64,000 nucleotides of DNA from Physcia stellaris. Lineage: Eukaryota; Ascomycota; Lecanoromycetes; Caliciales; Physciaceae. Below, one piece after another: positions 28,957 through 57,807 of the stretch (position 1 is its first letter; each line of letters begins with the position of its first letter). Position numbers and translations under genes: made by a program. The notes beneath the pieces were generated by a model. That model made no database searches, was not told the DNA's origin, and saw only the letters and a program-made list of their open reading frames with translations. Location of the stretch: assembly GCA_018902385.1 (NCBI GenBank), contig JABSSW010000018.1, positions 698,900 through 762,899 of the forward strand, given 5' to 3'.

Positions 28957-29835
28957 TCAGCACATCTCTGCGATCCGTGTATCGTGCCGTTCCGGCATTT
29001 CCACCCGAGCGTCAGAGTCAAGTTCGCGATCAGGTTGTTCAAGTTCTACAGGCGGAGGGATATCTGCCACTTCTTCGTGAAAAGAATTTGTCTTCTCTTT
29101 CGAGTCAGGATTATTGGATCTGGCCATGGCCTCTAGCATTCGCTGCTGCTCTAAGCGAGCCTTTGCATTCCTTCTCCAGAGCAGGAAGACGACCAGCGCG
29201 ATTAGAAATGTCACTGCAAGTGCAGCGCCGGCGCCTATACCTGCCTTTACACCTGTTGAGAGACCGTTGCTAGGCTTGAGTGTTGAAGTGGGCGAAGCAG
29301 CGGTTGCCGCGGTTGGCGCAACTGCTGTCGACGAGGGTTGAGCGCTGGTCGTCAGCCGAGCTGTTGTTGAGGGAGTCGATGTGATAGTGACAATTGTGTA
29401 AAGTGGGAGATCCCGTTTTTGAAAAGCAACCTGAATAGGCTGACCAAACATAGGGATTGGACCCGATACAACTTCTTGTGTCAAGATAGCACCACTGCCT
29501 CGAGCAATTACTGTGGTCGGACCACTGGATTTTGGGTAGGTACTGAGGCAGCCCGCAAAAATCGTTGTGGTTATTGGCGTGATTTGTCGATTGTTTGTGA
29601 GTTTGGTTAAGTAAGTAAAATTACTGCCTATTGATCAGCAACATGTCGTGTTGTGTCGGTACAAGCGACCGAGCTCTGAGAACACTCACGACAAGCAGCA
29701 CACATCCGTGGTCGTCGCGCCATTGACGACTTGAGCCGTTGTGCTGTAGCCGCGTGGACAGTGCCCCAGGCTAATGATCTGTGAGATGCTATGCCGGCCA
29801 TGGTTGCTAAAGCCAGATAGTAAGACGATAGTCAA
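28957..29835 (-). CDS. Mid2-like single-pass surface protein, 5' end unresolved
   Basis: Exons 29835-29690 and 29623-28957 join in phase 2 (acceptor GGCAG) into about 270 residues. The extracellular part carries HCPRGYSTTAQVVNGATTT followed by CC, a motif common in fungal secreted and WSC/mid2-like proteins, then AGCLSTYP and a Ser/Thr/Pro/Ala-rich stalk. One transmembrane helix (GAALAVTFLIALVVFLLW) is followed by a basic stop-transfer (RRNAKAR) and an acidic cytosolic tail. The hydrophobic start (LTIVLLSGFSN) resembles a signal peptide, but no in-frame ATG precedes it: the codon is TTG right after a TAG. Either a short 5' exon was missed or the start was lost where the GT61 relic abuts. Known relatives act as cell-wall stress sensors; that role here is inference. 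Confidence 0.62.
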
Positions 29836-29869
29836 CTATTGCACTAATGCCTCATCTTTTCTACTCAAC

Positions 29870-31023
29870 TGCTCTCACACCTGGGCAATGGCCGAAAAGA
29901 TTATCTCATTCTGTATTGGTTCTCCCTCCTTTCTTGAAAATAAAGAGAAGAAATTCAAGCTAGGCTGCAAGATCCGTAACTTGACACAGCAGCAGCTTGC
30001 TAAGTGTATCCCAGAGTTCTCGAAATTCCTATCTTATTGGTATGAAATAGGGCCTGAGATGAGCTTTGCGAGACATGTGAAGCTGGACCCCCATAAGATC
30101 ATCCAGAGCCATCAAGAGAAAGGACCAAAGAGTTACACTATACTTGCTCGCAGGGAGGGACCCTAGCCCATCAACAATCCTTTCCACCATCTCATGCAGG
30201 TTTTCTCGGTCTTCCTCATCCTGAACGTTATGCAGGCGACCATTGATCCAGCGACGGGTAATTCATTCTATCGCGACGAAGACTATCAGATTACCCGAGT
30301 CGTCATCTTTGATGAGTTCGTAGAAGAACTCTTGTTCGATCAGTGAACACTTTTCGCCAAAAGACCGGTGACCAGAATTAAGATACTTAAGAGAGCTCCC
30401 TCAGACACCGTGGAAATTATTATTGTTCCTCCGACTGGGCCTGCCAATGTATTCTGGAAGATAAAATGATCCTATACAGCTGTCACGACTCTAAACTATT
30501 GCATTCTTTTCCCAGCGTATGCTGAATTTCTATGGAGTCAATGACCCGCCGGGAGCTCCCGACAGACCACTCGTTCTTACCTTATCGACCGCACAGAGAA
30601 ACGTTTGAGAGCCAACAAAGAAACTTTCATCAACGACCTGAATGGCACCCATACCGACATGAAGACCAATCTTGTTGATTTCGTGTCTCTGTCGTTCGCC
30701 GACCAGCTCAAGATTATCCAGAGCACCGATACTATCGTTGATGTACATGGCGCAAGTCTGACACATTGTCTTTTCCTCAGGTCTCCATCTGCGTTGGTAG
30801 AGATATTGCCTCCTGATTCAATCACAAAGGTTTCCGAGATATGGCCAGCGCCCTTGGGCATCGATACTTTACTACCCATGCTATTGAACATGCCAATTTA
30901 AACGACTCCAAATGGCTGGCAACGGATGATGTTTCTATTGAGCGAGACCGCTTCAAAGGCTTGATAGATATGGCAATCGCGAGCATATACCAGCGGGGTT
31001 TGCTCAATAAACATGTCAATTAA
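29870..31023 (+). pseudogene. GT61 (EOGT-like) glycosyltransferase pseudogene
   Basis: One continuous frame matches the GT61 family: FCIGSPSFLENKEKKFKLGC, LRNLT-type IRNLTQQQLAKCIPEF, YWYEIGP, FHHLMQVFSVFLILNVMQAT with DPATG, the long conserved VDFVSLSFADQLKIIQSTD, and the nucleotide-sugar site VDVHGASLTHCLFLRSPSAL. Four in-frame stops break it: TAG at 30164 and TGA at 30344, 30467 and 30542. One base is missing near 30826, after which the C-terminal part (GFRDMASALGHRYF to 31023) continues in another frame. At 30344 the TGA sits where family members have Trp (FDQ-stop-TLFAKRP). Intact family members transfer sugars such as xylose or GlcNAc in the secretory pathway. The 5' boundary is uncertain and collides with the mid2-like gene on the other strand. 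Confidence 0.85.
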
Positions 31024-32918
31024 TCAAGATCCTTTCTTATTACGTACCCACCGTTTGACGAGTGTCACCCGGAAGGGGCATCATGGAAATGTCGAATGCG
31101 CTCTACCCGCTCATCGGCTGTATGAAGGCGGCGGTCTTGTGTAATACCACAATCTTGGTATCCTCTCTAGGATCCGAAGGTCCTTCGCGAAGACTCAATC
31201 AATAGGGAGGAGCGGTTCGTAAATACCAAAAGCGTTGAGTATACCGTTTAGCCCGAGGTAGTGAGCCCTCTCCATATGCCAGGACTTTAGAACAAAGCAG
31301 GCGTATCTTGGAGGAATACAGTCAACGCGACGAGTTGACCGAATTGAGGTCAGCCATTGACCTGAACGGCGACGGGATACCCAGGAAAGAGGGAGTAGCC
31401 TTCTCCTCCATGTACACTTGCAGATGCATACGATGCTCGAAATTCCAATACCTCCTCCCCGTACTGCCAGGCTAGCTATAATGTTCAGCCTATTGAGACT
31501 CCACAAGATAATTCTTGGCACAGTGCCCTGATGAAGTATTTCGAGTCGCCCAAGATTCATCAGAGACACGCTCGAACGGGTAAGCTTGGTGGAGAGTGGA
31601 AGGCACATGATGATGAGATACTGATGCGTGGCGGTGAAAGTAGTGGCTTATCGATGGAAGAGAATTGTAGGAAACCTAGAGGAATTTGTATGTAGTTTGA
31701 GCGAAAGGGAATTTAGAAATCCACTGCTTTCGAAAAGATGGATAATATTGGGTTTCTTCTATAGCTCGTAAGATGCTATGCAGAGTCTCTGCAGCGAGAC
31801 AGATCAATGGAGACCGGTTGCTTGATAACTTGGTCATCAGTCTGTGAAGCTGTGTGTGCTGAAGCTGCGAAGCCTTGCCAGCTTTACTGTGCTCAAGTCA
31901 AGTGTCCGATTGATTCGCCAAGCATTCCCTACGACACAAGTCGGGAGCATCGAAACTCGCTCACGGCAACCCATGTTGTTGTAATGCTTTACTCTACTTT
32001 TGTCTGTCATCGCGGACCTCGAAAGCACATATTCATCTCACGCGATTCCAGGCTGTAAAAAATGTTGAACGTCGTTAGAAAAACGAGCTGAATGTCAAAT
32101 TCACGACCCCACCAGCCCCGCTTCTTACGCGCTTTCTCAATTTCTCGGGCTCTCGGCCGTTTCAGATTTCTGGCGGCTCGAAAGTCAGAACCTGTCTTCA
32201 TTGGCTCTGTCTACAGCGTCCAGCACTTAAGCGAAGGCCAGCATGTGCCACAATTTTGTCTAGACTAGTCTAATTATAGTAGAGCAATTTATTGAAATGT
32301 TCACGCGGCTCGAAAATCAGGCGTTACAAGGATTTCTAGTGAAAAGCCATCAAGTTTCATGTACCCTGCTACCTCTCAGCCTCTAACAATGCCCCGAAGC
32401 CTGTCGCGAATCTCGCCCCGAAATTTGCCCACGAAAAGAAATTTGAACTTCGTCTCTTCCAGCGTCTTTCAATCTCAAGCTTTGCGACAACGAGGCAATA
32501 TTGATCAATAAAAAAGACTGCAAAGAGATGCGAGAGAATTGTACACCCATCTCACAACATTGTCAAGAACGACCTTTTGAGGAGAGGGGGCTTCGAGGTA
32601 TTATGAGAGGCTGAGAGGTGGAAGGATACACGGATCAGTGGCGTTACAAAAGCCTGCCGGCGATATGTTGTTTCAGTAAATACGAATCGTGCTGCACCAA
32701 TCGCGGAGCTCTTATAACGCTGACAGTGACAATTCAGTTTCGTCTCCGCTTTTGCGGCGCTTGCGGCGCTGACACGGCCCCCCGACAGGCTTGCACATCT
32801 CACAGTTTTTGCAATGTCTTCATTCGCGAACCTGCTGCTCTATTATGGTTGAGCATATTCGTCATGTATTGAACTTTGATGTCGTTATCGATGAGGACAT
32901 GATACTCGCTCATAGAAG
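31024..32918. other. 1.9-kb intergenic region with possible relic
   Basis: A plus-strand stretch at about 31280-31490 reads like a helical protein fragment (RDELTELRSAIDLNGDGIPR then CRCIRC) before a TAG. The minus-strand frame 31608-31195 is probably its shadow. No family was recognised, so no gene is called. The rest shows nothing. Confidence 0.4.
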
Positions 32919-34497
32919 ATGAACGGCTCACTTCTATCTCCATCGGAATCAGGTCATGGATACAATACCACATCGTTCTTCTCAAGTCGTTCTATTTCCA
33001 GACGACTAAAGAAATCGTCTTTCATAATCGCTATTACTGTCTTCATATTCCTCTGTGTTCCAATTATCACCAATTCGTCATCGATAGAATCTACTCTTGT
33101 AGCGTCGCTACCGAAGAGCAGCTCATCGTCAGAAACATGGTCACTGAGTCCGATACCAGACTCTCCATTGAAGGCTGGTAACTCGACGTTGACTGCCATC
33201 GGAGATTCTTACGTCAAAGCCATCTTGTCACCAAACAACACCGACTTCCCAAGGCTGGAGTGCTCGAGTCCCAGTGGTGACCGCTATCTCTATTTGCAGG
33301 ATCAGTCAGCACAAGGACTTAAGTACAATCAGAAACCCACTTATTTCTTCGCTCTCAATCTCTACCAATGTCTCGATATTCTTCCGAGATTGATGGGATC
33401 TATAATCGAGGCCATACGTTTCCTTGGCCCGGAAAATTGTGTCCTCTCAATCGTCGAAGGCCGATCCAATGACGGCACATACGAGGTTCTAAAGCTTTTG
33501 AAGGATGAGGTTGATGAATGGATCGGGACTAGACTATTCTTAAACACAAGTGACATTGATCCTGGGAACTTCAACGATCGGCGGAGAATTATAGCGCTTG
33601 CCGAGCTTCGCAATCTAGCATTGCAGCCGCTTGTCGAGCATGCAGAACAGTACGATCCGAACGTCACAGTAATATTCATCAATGATGTGGCTATCTGCGT
33701 GGAAGATATATTAGAGTTAATACATCAACGACGGTTTCAACAAGCCGACATGACTTGTGCTATGGACTGGACTTTCGTCGGAGGCAAGGCCATGTTTTAC
33801 GATTCGTGGTTGGCTCGAGGTATGAACGGCGATTCGTTCTACAATATTCCAGCGGACGGTAAGTAAATCTGCGAGTTTTTAATATTATTCTGGGATGTTC
33901 CGATCCGAAAGACATGTCTCGCGACCCAACGCTTATGCGTGTTTGGCAACGCTGACTCCGAAAATTTCCTTAGGTACTTGGAATAATGCATGGACTCTTC
34001 TCTGGAACAATCCGACGGCCCAAGATCGGCAAAGCAAAGGTCAGCCCTTCCAGGTGTTCGCCTGCTGGAACGGCGCCGTCACGTTTACGCCCAATCTTTT
34101 AATAGAGAGGAAAATCGAGTTCCGCGCTCCTCGTGAATCCGAGTGCTTTCAAGGGGAGCCAGAAATATTTGCCAAAGAGATGTGGTATCATGGGTATGGA
34201 AAGATCGCTGTGATCCCGAGTGTGAATCTTGAATACAGTAACGAAAACGCGAAAAAATCAAAGCTGAGAAAGGCTACGTCTCCAAGTGGACCGGAGAGAA
34301 GCGGGATGATGAAGAAGGCTTGCGAATCAAATGGAAACCAGAGCCGCCTGAAAAAGTGCGGTGCATTCCATTACCACGATCCAATCAACAGAGTTGGGTA
34401 CCATGGGATGAGGACCTACAAGGACCTGCATGATCTCGGCTGTCTTCGACCCGCGTGTCTATCTGCAATATTCTATCCAGTACAACGACAGTCTTGA
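32919..34497 (+). CDS. Alpha-1,3-mannosyltransferase, CMT1/CAP59 type (GT69)
   Basis: Exons 32919-33858 and 33974-34497 join in phase 1 to 487 residues. It is a type II Golgi-like protein: a short cytosolic tail with basic residues (RRLKKSS), one anchor helix (FIIAITVFIFLCVPIIT, about 36-52) and a Ser-rich stem. The catalytic domain has the family blocks YFFALNLYQCLDILPRLMGS, CVLSIVEGRSNDGTYEVL, RRIIALAELRNLAL, the acidic FINDVAICVEDILELI (about 252-267), MTCAMDWT, and after the intron PFQVFACWNGAVTFTP, FRAPRESECFQGE and VNLEYSNENAK. In Cryptococcus, relatives add mannose to capsule or protein glycans with GDP-mannose; in filamentous ascomycetes the acceptor is not known. The reading frame is intact. 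Confidence 0.88.
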
Positions 34498-34906
34498 CGA
34501 TTACAACAACTATCTGTATATGGCAGCCTAGTGGCAGCTTCCGCGAAGTATGGCATCAACGATGGTAATGTCAGTCTTACTTGAGTCTTTGCCGCGTTTT
34601 CCAATCACAAGAGGATTTGATCTATCGTCTCTGTGTACGAGTTCAAGATCAACAATCATGATCGCATTTTAATTTTTAAAGAATTCAATTTTCATAAAAC
34701 ACTTAATATAAAAAATTATTCAATAAATTTGCTTAATTGCGAATGAACGCTTTTTACCAGCTCACTACTTTACTTTCCTATTCTGTCACTTAGACGAATG
34801 GGAGTAATTGATCATAGATAGCCGCATATGGAGATCCCCTAGCATTTCTTTGGCTTATAGACTAACGAGGTATCGATGTAGTTGGTCCAGCTAAGGCAAG
34901 TCCGCC
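34498..34906. other. Convergent intergenic, AT-rich terminator-like region
   Basis: Between the 3' ends of the mannosyltransferase and the PKS relic. An A/T-rich run at about 34660-34740 could serve both polyadenylation sites. No gene is present. Confidence 0.5.
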
Positions 34907-37900
34907 TCAAGTCATTTCGAGATGCTGAAGCAAGCGACTTTTGCCAACAACAGTCTTACTCAGTTGCAGCAAGGTAGTGATTTTCATGAATTCAAGAAGC
35001 GAAAGGTTCACGCCAAGCTCACTGGTCATCCAATTCCGAACTTCAACGGCCACCAAGCTGTCCAATCCATACGTATCCATGTTCTTGTGTATGTCGAGGT
35101 CCTCCTTGGGCGTGAGCGAAATCGCCGAGAGCTTATCTACAAGAGCGTCACAAATAATTCGAACAGCTTCGTCGCGGGAGGTACAATGCCTGAGCGCGTT
35201 CCGAATTGGCGCCGCTTCGTCGCCGTCGTTGGTCTCGATGTTTTCCCTTACCGCAGGAAGGACCATTGACATTTTCGAATCTTTGGCCCAGAAAGGAAGT
35301 GGTTTTGTGGGATCTATCCTAACACCAGTGATGGTCTGCGCATAATTACAATCGGGGTTCCTATCGGCGATGGCGGCCTTGACCAGTGCATGCAGCTCTT
35401 GTTCTGTTATCTTGTCGTGTACAAGAGCTTCATGACTCATATTCTTGGGCATGTTATTGGCGACATAGCCAACCCCTTCGACCAAACCAAGATCGATTGA
35501 CGAAGCTGGTAGCTGGAGATTGCGCCTATATTGGGTGAAGGCGTCAAGAAAACAATTAGTGGCAGTGTAAGCGGATTGTCCTGCGTTCCCAAGAATACCA
35601 GTAGCAGAAGAAAGTACAACGAAGAAATCGAGTTCAATTTCTTCGGCTAGCAGTGCATTGTGGATATTCCAAGCACCTTGTACGCGTGGCTCGACGACTT
35701 TGCGATAGTCCTCGATGGAGGACTTTTCAAACAGAGTATCCTGTGTGGTGGTGAGTAGCAGTCATCTAGGGAGAAGGCTCTACGTACTTGAAGCACCATC
35801 GCGCCATGCACGACACCGGCTATGGGAGGCAATGCTTGGGACACGAGGTCTCTGATCAGATGCTGTGTATCGGTCTCCGACCCAATGTCGCATTTGGTTA
35901 CTACGACACGTACGCCAATACTTTCCATTTGTTGCACTAGCATCCCAACTTCATCAGCAGCTCCACCACTCCGAGATACGAGGATGATGTGTTTTGCGCC
36001 TTCTGTCCCCATCCATCGAGCCAACGACATACCGATACCGCCGGTACCACCTGTGATCAGGTAGCTCACATCAGCGCGCAGAATTGGGGGTTCTAGTGGC
36101 AGGTCTGCCTATAAAAAAATTTCATAAGTCACAGCCATAGTTCCGGACGAACAGCAACTTACCAGCACTAGATCATCATTCTTCGCTTCAATAACGATTT
36201 TTCCCATGTGCTTGCCGGCCTGCATCGTGCGCATTGCGCCCTCGATTTGAGACATTGGGAAGGTTGTAATAGGTGTCACCGGTTTAATTTTTTCGGAATA
36301 GTTGTTGAGAGCATCAAAGACACTTCTCAGGATTCTTTGGATTGTGGGAGGATGCTCCCTTGCGAGGATCTCTAGGTCAACGGCAGCAAAAGTCAAAGCC
36401 CTCGTGAAGTTGCTCGTCTCTAAGCGGACATTCAGCGCCAGGTCTCGCTTACCGATCTCAACAAGACGTCCTAACGGTGCCAACACGTTCAACGAGAGTC
36501 TTCGCATTTCAGCAGACACAGAGCTGAGAACCAAGGCGACCCCTCGACCTTCAGTTGCATCGAGGATTCCCGTCTCAAAATTTGTCGCCCGGCTGAAGAA
36601 TATGCGATCTCGGGGGATCCCATACTTCTCCATTAACAGACCCTTCTTTTCCTCGGAGCCCACGGTGGCATAGACTCTCGCCCCTGCGTGTTGGGCAAGC
36701 ATTATTGCTGCCTGTCCAACACCTCCTGCAGCCGAATGGATGAGTACAGTCTCCCCCTCGCTTAACCTGCCGACATCGAATAGAGCATGATAAGCTGTGC
36801 AGTAGACAATCGGTATTGAAGCCGCAACCGCGAAACTCATTTCATCCGGGATTTTGATCGTGCCCTCATAAGAAGCACGCGTGCGGTGAGAGTAACATGT
36901 ATCACTAATGGCGCATACTCGATCGCCCGTCTTGAGACCAGATCTTTGGCCGTCAATTCCAACTCTTGTGATTATCCCGCTACACTCGAAACCGAGCTCC
37001 TGATGCTGGATCTGGCCAAGTCCGATCATGATGTCTTTAAAGTTCATCCCCGTGGCATACACCTCAATCTCGACTTCGTCGTCGCCCAAAGATTTGGAGG
37101 TGATGGCACTATCGACGAATCTTATCGACTGGAGAAGTCCAGGTCTGCTTATTTGGACTTTAAACTCTCGACTTGCTTGTTTATACGGCTGCAGAGCTTG
37201 AGATCTGCCAGATAACTGCTGCATAATGTATTGATCCTTGTCGGCGTCGTGGAGGAGGCGCGGCACTGTCAATACTCCATCTATCTCCGCAAATTCCTTG
37301 TCAGCATATAAGGGAAATTCTTGGAGCAAGCCGTCTTGGAGAACTGCGCATATCATGCCTGCAGCCTTCTCATACGTCGTCATAATCTGAGCGCTGATAT
37401 CCAAAGTGACAACCTTAACATTCGCCATCTCACGTCGAAGAGACCGGGTCCAACCGACGCTCATACTGACTTTTGAGCATCCAACATCAGCCCTTGCTCC
37501 GCAAGTCACCCAGAGAATACCTGCAGCCTTGGCCATAAGTTTTTGTAATGTTACTAGTCGCTGAGAATCAAGATCTGGCAGGATAGGTTGTACATGGTCA
37601 AGGAAGACGTAGTACTCGTACGTGTCGTCTAGGGCGATGCTTTCAAGGGCGATGAACAATGGTTTCTCTTTGGAGCCATTAAACCTCTGGTATATGCTTT
37701 GGATTAAGTCATCTCCAGGGGGCAGCTATAAGTGAAGGTCACAGCTCTAGAGCTCATACCATTGATAGGACTGTTAGGGCTATTGTCGCCTAAGGTACGG
37801 GATATCTGCGAGCTTCCAGTCACCTCAGCGAGAGGCTTCCATTCTAGTCTGAAGCATAAATCTCGCTTCAGCGTTTGGCGATTCAAAGCATCCTGGAGTA

Positions 37901-39752
37901 TTGCAGCTCCGGTGAACCCCTCGAGCTCAAGAAAGGGCGTCTGGTCCGCTTGATTTTGGTCAAAGACTTTTAGCGAGGTGTTCAATAACAGACCTGAGGC
38001 TCCAACCTTGTTTGTACAATAACATATATAATCTTCTGGAGGTGTTTCACTGTTGACGCTTGATATAGACATGGACTTGATAAAATTCGAAATTCGCAAA
38101 TTCTTGATCTCTAGAAACTCGCCTGCTAAAGAAATCAGAAGAGAATGAAAAAAAACATTTAAAAGAGCTGAATGCATCATCAAATCGATTTTGTGTCCAT
38201 GGGGCATGATTTCAACTATGTTGAGTCGTTTCACATGATCTACGCACATAGTAGGCGCAGCTCGAGCTTCACAAAGGTTCTGATACGAAGACCCGTACTC
38301 CAATCCGGCCTTTCCAACCGTCTGATAGAACCCTTTGCAGTCCACAGACCTCTGACAAGACTTTTCTAAGGCTTTGATAGCCTTTTCGTTGACTTCGCCT
38401 GCATGAAGTATATAGTCCTCATCAAAGCGATTGAAGTCCGCATTCTTGTTTACCAAACAAATCATTCCCTTACAATGCTCGGTCCAGCCATGATCCTGGG
38501 TCCAGGAGCTAATTGTGAACTCATTCCAGGGAGATACTGAGGACCTTGTGCCTTCCGTCAAAGCTCGCAAAACGACCGAGGTTTCTATATCAGTGGTCCT
38601 TGGAATCACCATAGGCCGGCTTACCAACAGTTCCCGGAGTTTATATCGCGAGGGTGAATCGAAATTGGTAAAGGTCATCAGAGTCCATTGCCGTAGAGCT
38701 TCGAGGGCCATCCCAATGAAGCCAGCGAAAGGAAACACTACAATACCCTGTATCTTATGATGTAGTAGCCAGGGAAGGTCCTTAGTACGAAGAATATTCC
38801 TCCAACGTGGCTCTATGTCATTGTAGTCATCCACCAACGAGCCAAGTAAGTCATTGCGGGGAAGAGCCTGAGCCGATAATTACGGCTGAGCCGTGATTCA
38901 TGCCAATAAGATTTCTCGTGATTCCAAGCATACGGAGGGAGATCCCCAAGAGGTTTGAATCCCAAGCTACCTTGTGGAAAATTCACAGCCTCCAGATCGA
39001 TCGGCTGACCCTTCGCGAAAAGCTGCGAGACGAGTTGAAGCATCTGTCCGGTTGCATGTTTCCCTGTCACCAGAGATGATAGATACGTCACGTCATGAGC
39101 CCACTGAGTCGCTCTAAGGATATCGCTTACTGCAGTTTTCAAACTCGAGTGGAGCCCAATCTCGATGAGAATCATTTGAGCGTCCTCCTCTTTCCCACGA
39201 AAATCGTAGCACATATCCTCAACAGCAGACGAAAATTGGACGGGACTGATCAGATGGTCCACCCAGTACATCCAGTTCAACGATTTTTGATCGACTCTTT
39301 GACCTCGAAGTGACGAGTAAAAGACGCTTCTCGGTCCAGAACATGCTCTAATCCCTTTAAGACATTCTAGGTACTCATCCGCGATAGCTTCCATGTGATG
39401 AGAATGATAAGCTACTTCGACATGTAGCCTCTGAACAAACAAACTGTCGAACTCCGCATGTTTTTTTATGATCTGTATGACCAATTCGTCACCGGACACC
39501 ACCACAAGAGATGGCCCATTGATACATGCAACTGATGCCTTACCACAATTCACCTTCTTGAGCATAACGTTGACTCTCGCGAATGACGCGCCTACAACCA
39601 ACATGACCTCACCACAGCCATTTTCGCTCTCTCTGAGCTTCGATGCCAGCCGCCCTCGATGATATGCGATAGACAAACATGACTCGAGTGATAGCGCGCC
39701 TATGATGTACGCAGCCGCGTACTCGCCGAAGAAATGTCCAGCAACCTTCGCT
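34907..39752 (-). pseudogene. Truncated highly reducing type I polyketide synthase
   Basis: Read on the minus strand, the order is AT (partial)-DH-ER-KR-ACP. Exons run 39752-37824 (frame-broken), 37725-36163, 36108-35788 and 35740-34907. The AT begins in the middle at KVAGHFFGEYAAAY. The nucleophile motif GHSxG has become GHFFG (Phe codon 39731-39733), while AYHSHHM is kept. DH has LLHHKIQGIVVFPFAGF. ER has LIHSAAGGVGQAA. KR has YLITGGTGGIG and LSSATGILGNAGQSAYTATN. ACP has YGLDSLVAVEVRNW with its phosphopantetheine Ser. No C-methyltransferase domain is seen. A one-base loss in the C run at 38858-38861 breaks the frame between AT and DH. The ketosynthase and the first part of AT are absent: sequence turns into the AT-rich block just beyond 39.75 kb. 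No partner biosynthetic genes adjoin, so the cluster is not functional here. Confidence 0.9.
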
Positions 39753-39754
39753 GA

Positions 39755-39771
39755 GACAATGTTTCATTGTC
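39755..39771. repeat. 7-bp inverted repeat at the PKS breakpoint
   Basis: GACAATG-TTT-CATTGTC forms a perfect short hairpin exactly where PKS homology ends and the AT-rich block begins. Confidence 0.55.
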
Positions 39772-39856
39772 GGAGTCTGAATTGTAATTGTATGTGTGTA
39801 GATTCTAGTTACATGCGATCGTGACTTATTTGATCTATTGCTCTAACATTCACTCT

Positions 39857-39953
39857 ATCGGTACCGAAGCTTCGGTACCGATTATTTTGGTGGGTGGGGT
39901 TAGGGTTCGTTAGCTTCGGTACCGATGTTCGGTGGCAACATCGGTACCGAAGC
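39857..39953. repeat. Two inverted pairs of a 14-bp motif
   Basis: ATCGGTACCGAAGC occurs four times, at 39857, 39869 (inverted), 39913 (inverted) and 39940. The first two fuse into a 26-bp perfect palindrome (39857-39882). The second pair forms a hairpin with 17-bp arms and a 7-nt loop (39913-39953). The last copy is also the start of the 183-bp satellite unit. Confidence 0.9.
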
Positions 39954-40860
39954 GATTAATTTACGAATACTTATGCTATCAAAAATCTGAGACCAGATTT
40001 GGAATCAGCGAAAAAAACTGCATCATTTTCACATACATTACGTCCCGATCGGGTTAGCGGCTGATTTTATACGAATTTTTCAATTTTTATATCTCGAAAA
40101 TTCGATTAAGTTTCGATAAAACATCGGTATCGAAACCGTTTCTCGACGAATATTTGACATATTGAAAATGTAAAATCAATTTTGAAATTTACGAAAAAAA
40201 TGAAAATAAAAAGTGATAAGATTGAATTCGATCGAATTAACGACTGATTTTTTACAAATTTTTGAAATTTTGTATCTCGAAAATTCGATTAAGTTTCGAT
40301 AAAACATCGATATCGAAATCGTTTCTCGATGAATATTTGACGTATTGAAAATGTAAAATCAATTTTGAAATCTACGAAAAAAACAGAAATAAAAAGTGAT
40401 AAAATTGAGTTCGATCGAGTTAACGACTGATTTTTTAGAAATTTTTGAAATTTTGTATCTCGAAAATTCGATTAAATTTCGAGAAATTTGTTCTAATGAA
40501 GTCGTTTTTCGACGAATAATTGATGTATCAAAAATGTAAAATCAATTTTGAAATCTATGTAAAAAATGAAAATAAAAAATGACAAAATTGAATCGAATCG
40601 AATAAATAATTGATTTTTTTATTTCGAAAATTTGATTAAATTTCCAAAATTCTGCTATATCGATATTTTTGTTCGATGAAAAATTGACGTAACGAAAATC
40701 TGAAATCGATGTTGAAATATTCGTAAAATTTGAAAATAAAAATTGACAAAGTTGAGTCGAATCGAATAAAAAATTAAATTTTTACGAATTTTTCGATTTA
40801 TTGTGTTTCGAAAATTCGATTAAATTTCGAAAATTTTGCGATATCGAAATGAATTTTAAA
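39938..40860. repeat. 183-bp tandem satellite, about five copies
   Basis: Units align at offsets of 183 bp: ACATCGGTA at 39938, 40121 and 40304, then increasingly diverged copies near 40487, 40650 and 40835. The block ATCTCGAAAATTCGATTAA recurs at 40091, 40274 and 40457, and in altered form at 40621 and 40804. The leftmost unit keeps the most CC, GG, CT and AG dinucleotides, and units to the right are progressively poorer. Confidence 0.9.
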
Positions 40861-41329
40861 TCTGTATATAAACGTTAATTGAATAAAATAATAAAACAAC
40901 AAAAACATTAATATCAATTCAACAAAATTCACATTGTTTTGATAAATTTGTTAAAAATTAACATTTTGTCGAAATGTTTGCAAAAACATATTGCGAACAA
41001 TTGTACATATTTCGTCGAATGTAAACGTGTTTTGTTTCGATAATAATGACAAAATATCGAAAATTGTTGTTAAAATGTGATTGAAATTAGAGTCGAGAAA
41101 ATATTCGAATTGATTTCGTAAATTTTCGTCTGTTATTGTTGATACAATCGAATCGAAATTGTTGTCAAGAATATATTCTAAATATTCAACAAAATCTGTG
41201 TTTGACATTGTAGACATAATGTGAATTTGTTTTGAAATATTTTCAAAAAAATGTTGATATTTCAAAACAAAAATTGAAATTAACGAGAATATATAAATTG
41301 AATAAACAATATGAACAAAATTAAAAATA

Positions 41330-42360
41330 TTCATGCACGAATAAATTTAATAATAAAAATATTAAACATTAATACATGCACAAATAAATAAATATTCATG
41401 CACGAATAAAATTATATTCATGCACGAATAAAATTATATTCATGCACGAATAAATAAATATTCATGCACGAATAAATTTAACGATAAATATAATAAACAT
41501 TATTACATGCACGAATAAATAAATATTCATGCATGAATAAATTTATATTCATGCACGAATAAATTTAATATTAAATATAATAAACATTAATACATGCACG
41601 AATAAATTTATATTCATGCACGAATAAATAAATATTCATGCATGAATAAATTTATATTCATGCACGAATAAATTTAATATTAAATATAATAAACATTAAT
41701 ACATGCACGAATAAATTTATATTTATGCACGAATAAATTTATATTCATGCACGAATAAATTTATATTCATGCACGAATAAATTTAATATTAAATTTAATA
41801 AACATTAATACATGCACGAATAAATTTATATTCATGCACGAATAAATAAATATTCATGCACGAATAAATTTAATAATTTTAACAATACAAATTAATTTTT
41901 ACACGAATCAATTTAATTCACGCACGAATAAATAAATATTCGTGCATGAATAAATAAATATTCGTGCATGAATAAATAAATATTCGTGCATGAATAAATA
42001 AATATTCATGCACGAATAAATTTAATAATTTTAACAATACAAATTAATGTTTACACGAATCAATTTAATTCACGTATCAATAAATAAATATTCGTGCATG
42101 AATAAATAAATATTCATGCATGAATAAATAAATATTCATGCACGAATAAATTTAATAATTTTAACAATACAAATTAACTTTTACACGAATCAATTTAATT
42201 CACGCACGAATAAATAAATATTCGTGCATAAATAAATAAATATTCGTGCATGAATAAATAAATATTCGTGCATGAATAAATAAATATTCGTGCATGAATA
42301 AATAAATATTCGTGCATGAATAAATAAATATTCATGCACGAATAAATTTAATAAATTCAA
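41330..42360. repeat. ~1-kb minisatellite with higher-order structure
   Basis: Short units of about 17-22 bp built from CATGCACGAATAAATAAATA repeat dozens of times. Every ~110-160 bp they are separated by longer spacers (such as TTTAATAATTTTAACAATAC), forming a higher-order unit. The minus-strand frame at 42396-42190 is a by-product of this repeat. Confidence 0.9.
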
Positions 42361-42424
42361 TAATAGAATTTTATTTTTTTTGCAATATATAAACAACGAA
42401 ATTTTCTTTGTAATTTTTTTTCAA

Positions 42425-42640
42425 TCATTCACACTTTTTACATTTTCACACATTTACACACGAAACATACACACGATACACATATTCGCAACAAATATAC
42501 AAAATATACACACGAAACACACATACGACATACATATTCAAATCACATATACAAAACACAAACACGAAACACACGTACGAAATATATATACGCAACATAT
42601 ATTCAACACATATACACGTACAACGTTTACATGTATTACA
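42425..42640. repeat. CA-rich degenerate microsatellite
   Basis: ACACGAAACACACATACGA-like strings repeat irregularly, giving a CA-rich low-complexity tract immediately after the minisatellite. Confidence 0.7.
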
Positions 42641-43719
42641 TACGCGAAATATAATAAAACATTTTTTATAAAAAAATGTTCAGTATATTCGTTTGACGCG
42701 AATGATCGATCGAAAAAATTCTGATCAATTTTGCGTTCGTATTTTTTAAAATCGATAAATTCAATCAATATTTAATTCAAATTTTCAATCGAAACATATG
42801 TTAAGATCACATGAAATGTTTTTCAATTTTTGCAATTGTTGTTTTCGTTGCATCGTCAACAAGAACAACGTTTTTTTTTTGTATGTTGATTGAAATTTTG
42901 AAATTCGTTATGCGTTTTTCAACGTCGTTGAAATAACGCGTTTTGATCAAATGATTGTAAAATTATCACGTTTTTCATTTTTTTGATTTGTTAAATTCGT
43001 CACATGTTTGTTTGTCAAGTTTTCATAACGTGTTCGTGTTTTGATATTGCATTTCATTTTTTTTCAATTTATATTTTCAATTCAAATTTTTCATTTGCAG
43101 TCAGAATGACTTTTTTCGATCGTTTTATTTTTTTGTTCAAGATCGTTTCAATCATGTTATCAATCGAATCAACAATCAAATTCGCGAACAACAATTCGTC
43201 GTGTGAATGAATTTTTATGAAATCATCATTTTGTTTTTTCATTTTGCAAATTCAACGAAAACAACGTTTAAACGATTTCTCAATGATGTTATCAATATTG
43301 TTAACAATGTGTCTTTCAAAAAACGCGATAGAAAAACAAAATATCGAAAAAACGTCACGTTTGCATCACAATCACTCAAAGTTTTTTACAATTTTATTTT
43401 TTTTGAATTTGTTGTTGTACGTTTTCGTCAAGAAATTCGACGATTTGCGCGTTTCGCGAATCGTGTTTTTCGTTTTTTCAATTTTTGTTTCAAAAAAAAA
43501 ACGATGATCACGATTTCGACGATTTTTTTCATACATGAATAGCGAGTTCGGATTAGAGTTACGAGACGAGCAGACGAGAAATTTAGAAATTTTCAATTCG
43601 ATTTGCTTGTTCTGAATCAATCAAATCGTTAATTTCAATCATTCGCTTTAATCGACGTCAAAATAAAGTCAATCAAATCGATTGTTTAAGTCATTCGTTT
43701 GAACGACGTTTCATCAAAA
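42641..43719. other. AT-rich unique-looking decayed DNA
   Basis: Frames up to about 110 codons occur here (43207-43542 plus) but contain only composition-driven Phe, Ile, Arg and Ser. No family is recognised. Confidence 0.45.
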
Positions 43720-44500
43720 TTTGAAGTAACAAATGATAAACATGTGAAATCTGATATCTGTAACGCTCGATGAAAAAAATTCAATGTTGCAAAAATGAAA
43801 ATGATGTGACAAGTGAATGAATTGCTATTCAACTGCGAAAATTTCGTTTCATACAAATTCATGACAATTCGATTTTTCAATTTGCGTTCATTCAAAATTT
43901 TCAACTCAACAATCATGATATCATTTCATAATACATTTGCAATTGATACTTAATGATAACATGATATGTGTAGCGCTCGATGAGAAAAATTCAACTTCGC
44001 AAAAATGAAAATGATGTGACAATTGCGTAAAAAATGATTCAATTGCGAAACTTTGATTTCATACAAATTTTTGAACATTTAGCAGCAAAAATCGTGCGTT
44101 TGCTTTTAATTCAATTTACAGTTCAGCGATCATCATTCGAAAATGTAAACGCAAATAATCATCATCGAAAATTTGATGTTTGACGCTTTGAACGAACGCA
44201 ATTCAACGTCGTAAAAATCAAATTCGTGTGATCAATGTGTGAATAATCAATGCGATGTGAAATTTTGATTTCATACAAAATAACGATAGTCGATTTTTTC
44301 AACTTGTTCGCGATCACATATCGCTCAACAATCATTTCAAATGAAATAATCAAATAATCGCTATCGAAATTCTTTTGTAGCATTCGAAAAGCGAAATTCA
44401 ACGTCGTCGACACGAAGTTGATTTAACGACTATGTGCAAAATCATTCAATTGCGAAAATTTCACATCATTCAAAATTATGAACGTTCAACAGCAAAGCTT
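43720..44500. repeat. Four degenerate ~200-210-bp tandem copies
   Basis: A block like TAACGCTCGATGAAAAAAAT, followed by TCAAnnTnGCAAAAATGAAA and later by TTTCATACAAATT, recurs at 43761, 43971, 44181 and 44378. The copies are much more diverged than those of the 183-bp satellite. Confidence 0.75.
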
Positions 44501-45127
44501 GCGATCAATCAAATCACGTTTAAAAATCACTCGTTTTGACTCAATCATTTCGTTTTACTTTATCGAGCACTAACGCTGAATGTCTTAGATATTTCATTTT
44601 TAGAACATGTGTTTATTTCTGCAATGCACATCAAACGTTTATCACAGTCAAACGCGATTTTCAATCGTCAATTTACAACATCAATAATCGCATTTGCATT
44701 CATCATTGTCGAGCATGATTTCGAAACAAAAAATCAAAAATGTAATTTATAAACAACATTTTTCGCTGATTACATTTATTCATTGTTTTCAATTCAAAGT
44801 TCGACAACGAGTTCGCATTATTATGAATTCGATTCGATCATCGCGCACGTTGACATTCATCGCGATCAAAACGCAATATTGCAATCAACATGCATTTCAA
44901 TTTAAAAATCGACGCGATCAAACATTTTTATCAATTGTTGATCATAATTTTTTTAAACATCAAGTCGTTCATATTGTTTTCATCAATCATGTCATTGATT
45001 TGCTTTTTATTTTTTCAAATATTTGTTTTTTTTTCTTTTCGATAGATATTTTGTTTGCGAACAACACGATCAATTTTTTGCTCATTTGTCATTTGTTCAC
45101 AGTGAAATTTATTGCATTGTTGTGACA

Positions 45128-46284
45128 ATGAATCGCTCAATCAAATATCATACTGCGAAAAAGAAAAAAACAGCGAGAAAAGTTGACATTCAAAAATATA
45201 AAACAAACAAGAAAGCGAGCATCGACATCAATGAATCAATGAACGAATTCAATACAAATACATCAATTTTTTTCATCAACACAACTTTTTCGAAAATCAC
45301 AAAATTCACGTTTTTTGTCATTTTGTTGAAATTTATCAAAATCGACATCTTTATTCACGCGACGAATTTTCAAAAGATTGCTCTTTTTCATGTGAAACGA
45401 CGACATGAATCACATTTTTTGACGACGATTGTGTCATCATCATCGACGATATTTCAAAAATTCGAGTTTGCAACACGTTCAACATCACGACAATCTCGCT
45501 CTTCTCTTCAAACGTATGTAGAGAATTCAGAAATCGCTTCGCTTTCGATTCAGACTTTATCGTTGACGTTTTCTAAAAAATCTAAAGCGAGCAGACAATC
45601 TTTCATCATCATTGATAACAGACAGCATGATGTCGAGAGCAATTTCGTTTCAACAGATTTTTCTGATTCTCGAAATCGTATTAGCATTGCAAATAAAAGC
45701 ATTACAGCATTTTTTTGAAAGCGATGTCTTTTCATGTTTCAAATGTTAACACGTCGACAATTAATTTTTCAAAAACGTTTACAATGATCGATGCGTTTAT
45801 TTTCGTCGAAATCGCGTTTTTATTCAACGTTGCGATTTCGCAGCGAATTTCTTTGTCATTTCGTCGTCAAAGTGCGTCGACGCAATTGATGATGTCGTTT
45901 TCTCGTGTCAAAAATCAATTTTTTTTATCGTTATCGTCATTTACAGCTCGTTCGCGATTCGAATCATCGACGATACAAAATTCATCGATACAATTTTCAA
46001 AACAATCTGAACAATTTTCATTTTCGTTCATTTACATCGATTTCGATTTTTTCTTTTTTTTTCAAACTTTTTTCAGTTTCTCGAGCGAGTCGAGAAAAAA
46101 CGCAAAATCAAAGCATTTTGATCATTTCAACAATGACGTGCAAAAAGACAATAGCAATCATTTGTCAAATGACAATTTTATTGTCAATCAATCAACAGCA
46201 GACATTTTGCATGAGATTTCGCGATTTTTTTGCGTTTGTGATGAGTTTATTCACGATCGTCGTGCAAATCAGAACGATCGTTAA
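45128..46284 (+). other. Two adjoining open frames, possible decayed gene
   Basis: A frame from the ATG at 45128 to 45718 encodes a Lys-rich head (KYHTAKKKKTARKVDIQKYK) and a Ser-rich middle. A second frame at 45715-46284 overlaps its end and is Ser/Phe-rich. They are the most protein-like open frames in this part of the block. No family was recognised, and the amino-acid content largely follows the biased DNA. Confidence 0.3.
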
Positions 46285-48695
46285 TGAAATCGTTCAAATA
46301 ACATCATTTCAGAAAAGAACATCATTTCAGAAAAGAAAAAAACAAATGCTTTCGCGATCATGATGAATTTTGCGCAATATTGACGTATGATGCAAAACAA
46401 TCGTTCAAAATCGTTTTTCAACATCGATGTTTTTTTACATTTTTCGACAATGTTACAACGCGACGACGCGCTTCGAAACTATAAAAACATAAATTGAAAC
46501 AATTTATTTAGCGATAAATTCTTTTTGTATCGTTTCGATATCGTCGTTTTCGAAACATTTTTCGAGCAAACACAAATCAATTTTCGTTGAAAATTGCGTC
46601 GACGTTTCGATGTCGACGATTTCGTTGCTCATTTCAAAACGCTAAAAAATTTGAAAAACGATTTGAATTTGTCGTACGTTTCATTTTATTTTCAACGTGT
46701 GATGAACGATTCAAAAATGTTCATCGACGAACACAAATCGCATGAAATCATGAATTTTCGTCTAAAAATCGATTTCAATGATCGAAATTGAAATTACAAT
46801 ATTCACGTTTTCTTTTTTCACATGAAATTCTCGAAATCTCGTCATTTGAAAAATGCAATTCAAAAAATCTGAATAAATCAAATTGTACTATTTGCGATTC
46901 GCGCAAGCGTGTCGATCAATATTCGAACGCGACATTTTTTCAACTTTGAAATCGTCAAAGTTCAGACGCACAATAAAGAGAAAATTCACATGTACAGTGC
47001 TGATCATTTCATGAACAATTTTCGATTCATTTTCGTCGACAATCTTGTCGTTTTTTGAATTTAAGTTGTCATTTTGATCAACGAATTTGCGAAATTCAAA
47101 GAATCGATGTTGATGATTTTTGAATGAAATCAAAAATTGCATTTTCAACGATCAACTTTAAAAAAAACGCGAACGACTTTCATCATTCATTTGAAATAAC
47201 GCTTTCGCATTTTCGACGAATTCATGAACGAAATTTGAATTGATTTCGAAATAAAATATATTTTTTGTTTGCATCACGTCGATTTCGTTGTCAAAAACAT
47301 CACGTTGTTGTGAAAAGACATCGTGTTTCGAACATTGAAAAACGCTTTTTCACGACAAGATTAACGTCGCTCGTCGAGTTCGCAACGCGATTTATTCATT
47401 TTTGTTGATTCGTGATGTCGAATCTTGTTTCGTCGAAATGACATTCATTAACGCTTTTCGAACGAACGATGAACAAACGTTTCACAAAATTTACGTCATG
47501 ATTCGAAATTACTGATTTATTTTCGCTCGAGATGTCAAGTTTTTCGTCAACACATATTTCGAAAATCTGTCTTTTGTCGACGAAAAGTTCGATCGATGAC
47601 ACATCGTTAATCGTCGAAATGATTTGATTTTTGAGAGCGTTCACAGCAAACTCAACGATGATCAGTCGACATCGTTCAAATTCAAAATTTATCAATTGAA
47701 AACGTAACGAACAATCAAACATCGTATCGACATTTTATTGATTGACGCGCACAATTTTTTCATACGACGTTAATCGAAGTCGTCAATGATTTACGCAAAA
47801 ATATCGTTTACGTTTGTCAATTTTTCAAAAATTGAAATTTGTGCACAATTTCGTCGAAATTGATTTTTGATCATCATGAATTGTCAACGATTCGAAAATT
47901 CGAACGTCACATTTTTTTGTTTGTGAAATTTTTTTCGCAAATTTTTTTCGTCATCGTTCATATTGAATTTTGTTCAAAAAAAAAATCGACATTTTCATCA
48001 CGATCACGTTCAATCGTTATTTTTTATTCATCGAAATCATGATCATTCAATGTCACAATGATTTCAATGATTTGAAATTCGTTTTCGTTGACGAACAACG
48101 ACGATACAATTTCATGATCAACGTTTTTTTTCGAATTTTTCAATTTATCGTGAACGAAATTTTGTTTGTCACGATAAACGAATTGTGACAAAATATCGTC
48201 AAACGACGCGTCGTTCGACAATCATATTTATTCACGATCGATTGAAATTTTGATTCGTCGAATGTCAAAATCGTTCGACAACGCGAATTCAATTATAAAA
48301 AATGCATTCAAAAATACGATTATTTTTTTTTGTTCGTTTATTTCATCATTTGAAAATCGAATTTTTTGTTTGTTTTCGATTCTCGTTCTGCTCTTCGTTT
48401 GACTTTCGTTGCCGATGACATGCAAAATCGTTTCAAAGATTGTCGTGACATCGTTGCGATCATGATCAAACAAAACAGCACATTCAAACTGTTTCGCGAT
48501 CGAGTAAAAATTTTTATTTTCGATTATGACGACAAAAACGATTTGATCAATCACAAACGCGTTCAGAAAATCATGATAATTGAAATCGAATTGATTGTTC
48601 AATTTTACATTCAAAATATTTGAAACATTCTCAAAACACGAGCTACGAAACACATCAGAAATTTCGTCGAACGACAAAAACAAAATCGTCGCTTC

Positions 48696-49372
48696 ATGTC
48701 TCGATTGTCGAAAAAGAAAGCTGCAGAGCTTCATGATCTCATTTATGTTTTTGTCGTCAAATTGCTCGATGATGTCAAGTCTAAAATTGTCTTTGAACGA
48801 TCACTCAAAAAGTACGATCCGAACAACAACAAAATCGACGTCTTTGAAAAATACTACGTCAATGACAAATGAATCGATCGTTTTCGAGTTTTCTTCGAAT
48901 GAAACGATCTTTCTCGCGACAAAAAACGCATCTGAAACAAGACTCGATTTCGTCAACTTTTGAGTCGATTGCACTACATCGTTTTCACTTTAAAGTCTTT
49001 TGTCGACGTCACATTTCAACAAATTCTTGTCGTCGTCGTTCATCAAAAACTTTTTTGTATTTCATTTTTCGATTGCGATCATCTGTTCATCGAGTTGAAA
49101 TTCAACAAAAACAATAACATTCAACGTGTGATCGAAATCGTCGATCAAATCGAATTGAAACGAACGAATTGATTTATCGTTTGTTTTTTTTTCGACACAG
49201 CAATCGCGTATCGAAATCGCATCATGACGATGTTTCGATTTTCGTTCGCGATACAAAAAAAAATAACGCAATGAATTCAACATCATATTCGCACAAAACA
49301 ATTGATCACGATCATTTTTACGAATGCATGAATCGTTTATTTTCGAAATTCAACAAATTTGCATTTGTAATC
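48696..49372 (+). other. TGA-only interrupted frame, possible relic
   Basis: One frame runs about 225 codons with six or so TGA stops and no TAA or TAG until about 49370. It contains protein-like segments such as KKAAELHDLIYVFVVKLLDD and NNNKIDVFEKYYVNDK. If TGA marks former Trp codons, the segment reads as a continuous protein. The family was not identified. Confidence 0.35.
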
Positions 49373-49485
49373 AATTTTACGATGTCGACGCGCTCAGAAA
49401 TTTCATGTCGTTGTGACAAAGACAAAAAAAACAAAATCGAACGAAATCAATGATCGATCGAAAATCTCGACGAACGAAAACGACG

Positions 49486-49509
49486 AAAAAAAAAAAAAAA
49501 AAAAAAAAA
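49486..49509 (+). repeat. 24-bp poly(A) tract
   Basis: This uninterrupted run of A is the longest homopolymer in the window. It could be the tail of a retro-inserted element, but no target-site duplication could be made out. Confidence 0.8.
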
Positions 49510-50204
49510 CAAAAAAGACGTATTTCGTAATTTGATAAATTAAAATCACGATGAATTTCAATTTTTTTCATTTTTGTTCAATTTATCATCGCAATTTCTT
49601 TTTTTATTTTTTATGAATACATTTGTTTGCAAACAACGTATTTATTGAATTTTGATATTTCGAATGCAAACAATGTGTGCATGATTGTCGATATATATAT
49701 GCGATTCGCAAAATCTATGAAAAGCAAAAAAATGAAAATTTCTTTCAAATTGTCAGAATGACATTGAATTTTAAATGTCGAAAAAATTTCATTTGTCAAT
49801 ATTTTCATCTTTCAAATGAAATTCATTTGATAAAACTTTTCAATGTAATTTCTTGAATTCAAAATCAAGTCATTCATGTTTTTAATCGAGTCAGATTTCG
49901 ATGAATCGCTTATCAACAAAACTATGCACATATTTCGTTTTTTGATTGCGTTCAAATTGTCGTAATGATTTACGTGAAAATTGATTCATTCGTACAATCA
50001 ACATCTCGATGCGAAACATTTTCAATGAAATTGATTTATTAGCAATTGTTTTTTTTGACGACATCACATCATTTTACTTTCAATTTTAGCATTTCGTCGA
50101 ACGCATCATTTAAAATTAATTAAATCGATTTGAAAATTCACATCGTTTTTCACATTTCATCAAAAAAAACACGACAATCGAATTTGAATTTAAAAAATTG
50201 CAAC

Positions 50205-50228
50205 GAATGTTGTTTATAAACAACATTC
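50205..50228. repeat. 24-bp perfect palindrome copy
   Basis: A copy of the dispersed family with the 20-bp consensus intact and complementary extension by two bases on each side. Confidence 0.9.
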
Positions 50229-52316
50229 AACGCAAATACAAACATGAACAAAATTCGCAATTTTTGATACATTGTCATCGAAAATTGTTGAACAAAACAA
50301 TTCAAAACATCATTTTCGAACTCGACTGACGCTAAACAAAAAACATATTAATATCAAATGAATTTCAATTGTCGACGCGATTATCGCAACAATCGTTTAA
50401 CATCAATTTTCATTTTTAATCAATTGCACGCTGTTGATTACACATATTTATCACTTTTCATTGCATTGTGAACGTTATTGATTATCGCAATTTCGATGTT
50501 CATTAACATTGTTTCAAAATCATGATTTCGTTTCGTGATTCGAATTTTTTTTCAACAAAATTCGAAATTTTTGTATTTGAAAATCATGAATTATTTCGCG
50601 TTCAATTTCACGATTCGTTTCATTTGTTTTGTATTATCATTCAATTTTCATTCAATTTGACATTTTTTTGATCGTTTTCGTTTTCGCGTTCAAATATCGC
50701 GAGAAAACAACATTTTCGCGTTCAAAATTTTTTCGCGATTTTCGCGTATTTCGAAACGCGTGATCGTGAACGCATTTTCAACGTTACAAACAAAAAAATT
50801 ATCGAAATTTTGAATTTGACATTTGAATCAAACGATTGTCGTCGACGAATTTTTGATTTCAAACTCATCGACAGCAAGATTCTCAAATCTGTTCGTTTTC
50901 GAAAATTTAGCTTCTTTTCAATGTTCGTTCGAATACAACGATACAAAGCAAATATCGTCGTTCAAAATGAAAAGACTCAAAAAATGCGCATTTGACTGAA
51001 ATTTTTCTTCAATTCATCATTTATATGAATAGACGTCTCGATCGTCGATTCGTCAATTTTTTTTTCGATGATTTTCGCAAAACGACATTGATCGATTTTG
51101 ATTGCGAACGTTAAATAAAAAAAACATCAAATTAAATTTTGTCGTGAATTACATTTGAATTGCGTACGTCGAATTTCGATCACAATTCGCGTCATTTTGT
51201 TTATAAACAATCGTGTTTACATGTCACGAGATTTTGATTTTATCTTGTTCACATGCACGTGATCGATATTCACATCATCGTATTTATACATTTTTTCGTT
51301 ATGTGAAAGATATTCACATCATCGTTTATATTTTTTCGTCATGTTATTTTTTCACGTTTTCACATTTGTTTTTTCATTCATCATCGTCACAAACTTTGAT
51401 CAAAAAGTCGTTTTTCAACAATCTTTACGTTTCATCAGCACAATCAAGTTGAATTGTCTGTACATCGAACTCGAAATCTTAACAGTTGTAAATTCTAATT
51501 TCGTTTTTAAAATTAAATTCAATTTTTTTGTTTTGTTTCGCGATGCGATTTTTGTCATTGATCATTGTTCACGTTCTGTCAAAAATTCGTTTATAAACAA
51601 CATCAATCGAATCGAATCAATATGTTCACATCGTCGAATCAAACGAGTTTCGAAATTTCGATCAAAATCAGACTTTCGACATTCGCAATTTCACAAATTT
51701 TGATATACGCAGTCAACAATTATATGAACGTCGTTCATTTCACAAAGACGTCAAAGAATGTATCGACAGATATGACGTCGCGAAAAATGACGTGATTCAC
51801 GATTGAGCATCAATTAGCGACTCTCAGACGCGTGATGTTCGCATCTGAAACGTCAAACAGAATCAAAAAGACAATGCAGAACAAACTTGAAATCGAAAAT
51901 AAATACTTCTTTTCTGTCGCGAAGACGACGATTTTGAAAATCGATATCTATTGCAAAATAATGCAAATCGTGTTTCATGTCATCATAAAAAATGAAATCG
52001 ATATATCGACATGACGTTTCTTTTACGTCAATGATGATCAAATTAATGCAATCATCAAAAAATATATTTTCATGTTGAGAATCGCAAACATATATCGCGA
52101 TTTGTACGAATCGTTTCGCATTCAATCGAATACGACAAAAAATTTTGAATTGTTCAAAATTTTTTCGTATTGATCGAAAAAAATCAAATTTATCGAAACG
52201 TCATGCATTACATCAATCTGATCGAATTAAAAATAATTAATCGATTTTCGTACGTCATTTGCATGCTTGAAACGTTTTTTGCGTTTAATCGATTTACAAA
52301 AACGCAAAATTGAACG

Positions 52317-52344
52317 ATTGATGTTGTTTATAAACAACATCAAT
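52317..52344. repeat. 28-bp perfect palindrome copy
   Basis: The longest perfect member of the dispersed family. Symmetry extends four bases beyond the 20-bp consensus on each side. Confidence 0.9.
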
Positions 52345-57764: not shown

Positions 57765-57807
57765 GATGTTGTTTATAAACAACATCGATGTTGTTTATAG
57801 ACAGCAT
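57765..57807. repeat. Paired palindrome copies
   Basis: A 22-bp perfect copy (57765-57786) is followed one base later by a copy with two changes, GTTTATAGACAGC (57788-57807). Confidence 0.85.

Follow-up and report, generated by a model that had tools for sequence, protein, structure and literature searches.

Repeat-induced point mutation (RIP) has reportedly been surveyed earlier by Clutterbuck in 2011 and by Testa in 2016 (OcculterCut). Two full dinucleotide orders were found in print, both in the available portion of one article (PMC5496416): in Neurospora crassa the order is CpA>CpT>CpG>CpC, and in Trichoderma reesei, where RIP was seen in crosses, CpA and CpG come about equally first, so that both orders put CpC last. 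As far as the available portions of other articles go, CpA, CpT and CpG signatures are described, with CpT leading in Magnaporthe and in one Botrytis strain (PMC4352252), CpA and CpT are targets in Anisogramma (PMC10998396), CpT to TpT is the dominant form in alignment-based analyses (PMC7882544), and CpT change is high in Neurospora Tad1 and in some Stagonospora repeats (PMC2621366). CpC itself appears in excerpts on Monilinia, where double mutations of CpC to TpT accompany the classical CpA type (PMC8959702), on the methylation of MAGGY, where CpA is preferred over CpC and CpT (PMC7979813), and on Rhizoctonia, where a table gives the shortest spacing (214 bp) to CpC changes and the text calls the bias CpG (PMC4014442). 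In the available parts of PMC4352252, PMC10998396 and PMC7882544 a text search did not turn up CpC. Agnostic k-mers were applied to 1,239 fungal genomes in a 2025 survey, which concludes, in the portion available, that a preference for CpA is common to RIP-like defences (PMC12543289). CpT as a RIP target is accordingly familiar, and an order headed by CpC in which CpA is spared was not found in the literature searched; the full-text search, which covered main texts, partly as excerpts, gave no report of a CpC-led RIP, and an earlier report may exist.

The locus described here lies in a window of 64,000 nucleotides (C18:698900-762899), taken from a host genome of about 44 Mb and reaching the contig end at 762,899. 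The GC-rich, gene-bearing part of the window (1..39900, 48% GC) has ordinary dinucleotides, with observed/expected ratios of 0.92 for CpC, 1.04 for CpT, 1.13 for CpA and 0.89 for CpG, and served as an internal control. From 40 to 64 kb, running up to the contig end, the window is occupied by an AT-rich block (40000..64000, 29% GC), the start of which is a satellite array. In this block the corresponding ratios are 0.02, 0.29, 1.29 and 2.98, with TpA at 0.37, and for 42,620-64,000 they are 0.01, 0.31, 1.29 and 2.92. It is clear that the regional depletion of CpC and CpT is far beyond chance: CC and GG together occur 14 times in 42,620-64,000, compared with a mean of 975 and a minimum of 898 in 200 mononucleotide shuffles. 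Relative to the GC-rich part, the triplets CCA, CTA and CTG are reduced to 0.007, 0.17 and 0.23 of their level and TCA and TCG are raised 1.7-fold and 2.1-fold; the loss of CCA and CTA and the gain of TCA imply that the mutated base is the first C of CpC, which thereby becomes TpC.

The junction between the gene-rich DNA and the repeat block (39938..40043) was followed by GC per 50 bp and CpY counts; GC falls from 0.54 (39,901) to 0.30 (39,951), and CpY declines gradually to 40,150. Just outside the array, at 39,858-39,950, the palindrome TCGGTACCGA occurs four times and flanks a single TTAGGG at 39,900, possibly as the end of a mobile element. On the minus strand at 34,900-39,770, reading of the open frames gives a putative polyketide synthase gene that reaches the AT-rich junction and looks truncated there. 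Within the AT-rich block no Pfam family was found above the cut-off in eight open frames scanned. TRF places ATTCATGCACGAATAAAT-type tandem repeats with no CpC remaining at 41327..42353, and the CpC share is zero across 41,001-43,000. The part at 54000..58000 has further copies on C114, C34 and, for a portion of it, C92 (identity 95%, 95% and 91%), and in the stretch compared one CpC remains among the three copies from the window, C114 and C34. C/T differences in this part lie at CpT in 116 of 165 cases against C114 and in 116 of 158 against C34. The C34 and C92 copies are situated near a contig end, and the copies of this part are perhaps subtelomeric or centromeric.

A sequence-only reading of the window had started from the satellite array (40044..40860), which consists of about five units of first 183 and then about 164 bp and was analyzed here with TRF and unit comparisons. 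TRF reports 3.1 copies of period 183 (40046-40619) and 2.0 copies of period 164 (40448-40783). The least mutated unit is that at 40044, and the next one starts at 40227. Between the 17-base blocks CCCGATCGGGTTAGCGG at 40044 and TTCGATCGAATTAACGA at 40227, 183 bp further on, six sites differ over the two strands, of which five are CpC and one is CpT, and all CpG cytosines of the block are kept, in agreement with that reading. The unchanged CpA that it placed in the block does exist, but lies outside the 17 bases, in CTGA at 40061, and the strict context rule holds within the 17-bp block but fails across the whole 183-bp unit, where unit 2 has lost the C of unit 1 at 6 of 7 CpC, 2 of 7 CpT, 2 of 26 CpG and 1 of 12 CpA sites, in the company of five reverse-direction changes and three transversions. 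The noise grows in units 3 and 4, which have 13 and 27 transversions.

The array matches at least 100 places in the genome (40 of 58 candidates scored), of which nine were aligned (L024-L032). The best match is an array on C5 (L024), relative to which the window has lost CC at 23, CT at 19, CA at 11 and CG at 3 sites and gained little; in the opposite direction the C5 copy has lost 0, 2, 3 and 1. The C5 array retains more CpC and CpT, which speaks against the GC-richer unit being derived, the outcome that would have contradicted the sequence-only reading. The eight other copies (L025-L032) differ in mixed contexts that include CpA, CpG and transversion differences; against L031, for example, the window has lost 12 CC, 30 CT, 13 CA and 15 CG, with 90 transversions. 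With eight copies less clean in this way, the CpC/CpT rule could not have been established from the satellite by itself. The idea that the gradient along the array is a natural record of the process became less likely: the C5 array shows the same gradient (CpC per unit 16, 12, 3, 0, 0), both arrays are less mutated at their outer edge, and at a transposon edge elsewhere (see below) mutation tapers over about 200 bp, so that an edge effect is more likely than a record of time.

The rule was tabulated by next base in pieces of three transposon families, comprising 16 mutated copies that were each compared with an unmutated copy. L023, a 1,500-bp reverse-transcriptase piece whose frame is open, served as the Ty3/Gypsy reference; at least 39 further genomic places were found for it (40 of 191 candidates scored), and 12 of them were aligned. 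One of these (L033), 96% alike to L023, is a second nearly unmutated copy and was excluded from the totals, which thus cover 11 copies. Pooled over these, C was mutated at 1,678 of 1,802 CpC (93%) and 1,584 of 2,156 CpT (73%), compared with 90 of 1,913 CpA (4.7%) and 67 of 1,903 CpG (3.5%), and the individual copies range over 82-98%, 46-94%, 2-8% and 2-7%, respectively; with L033 included the totals are 1,693/1,996, 1,599/2,376, 92/2,109 and 76/2,090. C>T makes up 3,428 of the 3,589 substitutions in the 11 copies. The 5' base has a small effect, the mutated fraction varying with the preceding base between 0.92 and 0.94 for CpC and between 0.67 and 0.81 for CpT. When the counts were fitted to 1-exp(-kt), rates relative to CpC came to 0.34-0.92 for CpT, 0.011-0.031 for CpA and 0.007-0.025 for CpG, values that are less certain where CpC is saturated. 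One copy (L034) has 241 C>T, three transversions and seven T>C in 1,455 bases, an excess which implies that the mutations accumulated much more rapidly than by ordinary divergence. MIP, a methylation without mutation, leaves the sequence unchanged, which is not the case here, with up to 380 C>T per copy (L044, 1,454 aligned bases). Nearly unmutated repeat copies coexist with the mutated ones, and the process must therefore be leaky, rare or extinct.

A Copia piece (L045), compared with the four further matches detected, and a pogo-like piece (L046), compared with its single match, gave the same context order: in these five copies 93-99% of CpC, 81-95% of CpT and 5-12% of CpG were mutated, and 5-11% of CpA in all except one. 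Over all 16 copies the mutated fractions are 82-99% for CpC, 46-95% for CpT and 2-12% for CpG; for CpA they are 2-11% in 15 of the copies, the remaining one having 30%. A CpA-dominated pattern is absent, and the enrichment that the sequence-only reading had predicted for dispersed repeats was borne out in all three families. The exceptional copy, a Copia element on C15 (L052), has 30% of CpA mutated together with 97% of CpC and 95% of CpT, which suggests CpA as a slow third target, or else a second process. Two further DDE_1 pieces (L047 and L048) are only 60% alike to the pogo-like piece, with 164 and 171 transversions, and were treated as other families. Their rates (CpC 0.32 and 0.30, CpT 0.25 and 0.28, CpG 0.25 and 0.21, CpA 0.15 and 0.14) do not display the CpC/CpT rule, and being too diverged for this purpose they were dropped from the counts. 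In summary, a dense signature of CpC > CpT >> CpA ~ CpG on both strands is present in the Ty3/Gypsy, Copia and pogo-like families and, less cleanly, in the satellite.

Both strands are mutated in all 11 Gypsy copies, at 0.55-0.93 of the CpY sites on one and 0.68-0.97 on the other. The copies were mutated largely independently, the correlation at CpT sites between copies being -0.01 to 0.31, with the exception of L034 and L035 (0.78), which have most of their mutations in common and probably descend from a common mutated ancestor. At about 1,050-1,350 in L023 coordinates (150-bp bins) L034 has 4 of 42 CpY sites mutated on the top strand and 29 of 40 on the bottom strand, compared with 29 of 41 and 28 of 40 in L035. 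This nearly untouched top-strand stretch, missing in the near-twin, suggests that each mutated tract arises on a single strand.

A single junction, in L017, was examined closely, and there mutation ends where the repeat ends. Between base 3 and about 2652 this stretch matches many places in the genome and is devoid of CpY; beyond about 2652 the sole match listed (39 of 189 candidates scored) is at 7367-7709, and the sequence past the edge is probably single-copy. Counted per 50 bp over 2,301-3,300, CpY rises from 0-1 up to 2450 through 4-6 at 2451-2650 and 9-10 at 2651-2750 to 10-17 beyond. The 343-bp duplication at 7367-7709 has a normal composition (101 CpY, 90 CpR), and in this single pair 22 of 33 C/T differences lie at CpY, a mild excess, next to 19 transversions; the minimum repeat length for RIP in Neurospora is about 400 bp. 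In L014 the mutated DNA at 93 to 5,818 and 8,913-9,500 matches other places, and for the last 500 bases, which are low in CpY too, no match was among those listed (28 of 766 candidates scored). A GC-rich stretch within this heavily mutated DNA (5.8-8.8 kb) was rejected as a single-copy control because it is itself repeated, its best listed match being on C2 (78-82%), and we read it as a probably less mutated repeat copy. All four mutated stretches searched for copies (the array, 54-58 kb of the window, most of L014 and the start of L017) turned out to be repeated, with candidates partly scored, and in what was tested mutation was thus confined to duplicated DNA.

A genome sample of 18 stretches at chosen, non-random positions had the signature in four (L006, L014, L019 and, over its first 2.4 kb, L017) and lacked it in the other 14. 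The general hallmark of RIP, a large excess of C>T over other changes in both strands of repeated DNA, is evident, but classical CpA-type RIP is not: the CpA sites are nearly spared as given above, and at the usual thresholds (TpA/ApT >= 0.89, substrate index <= 1.03) none of 41 windows was called, with values of 0.33 and 1.38 in 42,620-64,000. The stop codons in transposon matches differ accordingly. In 150 RVT_1 matches scored, out of 527 candidates, we counted 250 TGA, 33 TAA and 3 TAG, with 10 of the 150 free of stops, and in 10 DDE_1 matches 44 TGA, 3 TAA and no TAG. The excess of TGA is expected if the TGG codon for Trp changes at GpG and CAA, CAG and CGA are mostly spared; genes hit in this manner would lose Trp codons to TGA and mostly keep those for Gln and Arg. 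The 33 TAA and 3 TAG in turn require changes of CpA type, or older ones. By eye, the stops in the RVT_2 matches also look mostly like TGA.

Candidates for the methyltransferases that the sequence-only reading had thought of are encoded in the genome. The PF00145 profile gave four matches in three C5-methyltransferase genes, on contigs C6 (L001), C5 (L003 and L004) and C3 (L002). We take the first two as RID/Masc1-like and the third as DIM-2-like from their motifs. The C6 and C5 proteins are 36% alike, retain PPCQ, QxRxR and GNAVPP, and have PF00145 as the sole Pfam domain in the exon pieces scanned, and this absence of other domains together with the motifs classes them as RID/Masc1-like; the RID/Masc1-like gene expected of a RIP system is hence found twice, to judge from sequence. 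At motif VI the C6 protein carries EET and the C5 protein EQT, which we take to be the mark of RID, and the C3 protein carries ENV. Two TGA inside L001 fall at introns according to our reading of the frames, and the last exons of both RID-like genes lie behind introns.

The DIM-2-like gene makes it necessary to consider a slow deamination of 5-methylcytosine, in which this enzyme would methylate the repeats at CpC and CpT and the methylated base would decay to T. Among its copies the block of the window varies mainly at CpT, and the available part of a table in a 2026 review attributes a CpT preference to DIM-2 (PMC13297926). We nevertheless regard such decay as improbable, as L034 has changed 233 of 374 CpY sites against its three transversions, and the repeat-edge and strand-tract structure argues against it as well. 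The ratio of CpY changes to transversions in L034 is far above that of ordinary 5-methylcytosine decay.

Still considerably less credible is the editing of retrotransposon cDNA or single-stranded DNA by an APOBEC-like cytidine deaminase, which would yield C>T in a dinucleotide context and fits the one strand-specific stretch in L034; the two strands are mutated to a similar extent, however, and the pogo-like element, a DNA transposon, was mutated too. Known deaminases read the 5' base, whereas the rule here is set by the 3' base with little effect of the 5' one, and the triplet shifts (TCA and TCG up, CTA and CTG down) show CpC going to TpC and not to CpT. We attach hardly any weight to UV or other dipyrimidine damage, or to a general AT mutation bias, even though CpC and CpT are dipyrimidines: the dipyrimidines in TpCpA and TpCpG were spared in the Gypsy copies (20 of 607 and 36 of 781 mutated), contradicting such damage, and both the halt at the L017 repeat edge and the share of C>T among all changes (over 95%) speak against either cause.

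We are thus fairly confident that a RIP-like system with an unusual target, CpC > CpT >> CpA ~ CpG, is or until recently was present in this genome. The homology-linked process sparing CpA and CpG that had been suggested from the array is strongly supported by the three transposon families and the repeat edge in L017, with the homology link itself coming from few places and one junction. In such a system the C-to-T changes would arise in bursts through a RID/Masc1-type pathway that is triggered by homology and, by analogy with Neurospora, may act in the sexual phase. RIP in the general sense takes place between fertilisation and meiosis and depends on RID. The altered specificity could reside in one of the two RID-like proteins (EET on C6, EQT on C5) or in the DIM-2-like one, and the mutation is probably carried out by one of the two RID/Masc1-like enzymes. 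More specifically, we see about an even chance that a RIP of reversed order, a CpY-specific genome mutator, operates most likely through the diverged RID-like EET paralogue on C6.

If this is RIP, its target can be reversed, and the genome would offer a natural contrast for locating the determinant of specificity in RID or DIM-2. Indices based on TpA can miss heavily mutated repeats. Since those in common use respond to a gain of TpA and a loss of CpA, a CpY-type RIP, if the reversed order is true, may be carried by other lineages without having been noticed.

Compared with RIP in N. crassa and most Pezizomycotina, the process described here shares a high density of C>T in repeats, with both strands affected, and the presence of RID-like and DIM-2-like genes, and Neurospora RIP is likewise weaker at repeat ends. 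It differs from N. crassa in its order, CpC>CpT>>CpA~CpG, and in that TpA is depleted instead of enriched. T. reesei also departs from the N. crassa order, with CpC last there and first here. Two RID/Masc1-like proteins are listed for each of Botrytis and Sclerotinia in the available part of PMC4352252, the same number as here, and within Botrytis, Sclerotinia, Magnaporthe and Anisogramma CpT is a main target in some; in the portions at hand (PMC4352252, PMC10998396), however, CpT accompanies CpA, whereas in the present genome CpC comes first and CpA is almost unaffected. With the RIP-like CpG and TpCpG mutation of the Basidiomycota Microbotryum and Rhizoctonia, as excerpted, the present process has in common a context other than CpA, but CpG is named as the target there and is the best preserved dinucleotide here (PMC2621366, PMC4014442). 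Measured against the shared CpA preference stated in the available portion of the 2025 survey (PMC12543289), this genome breaks the rule very cleanly.
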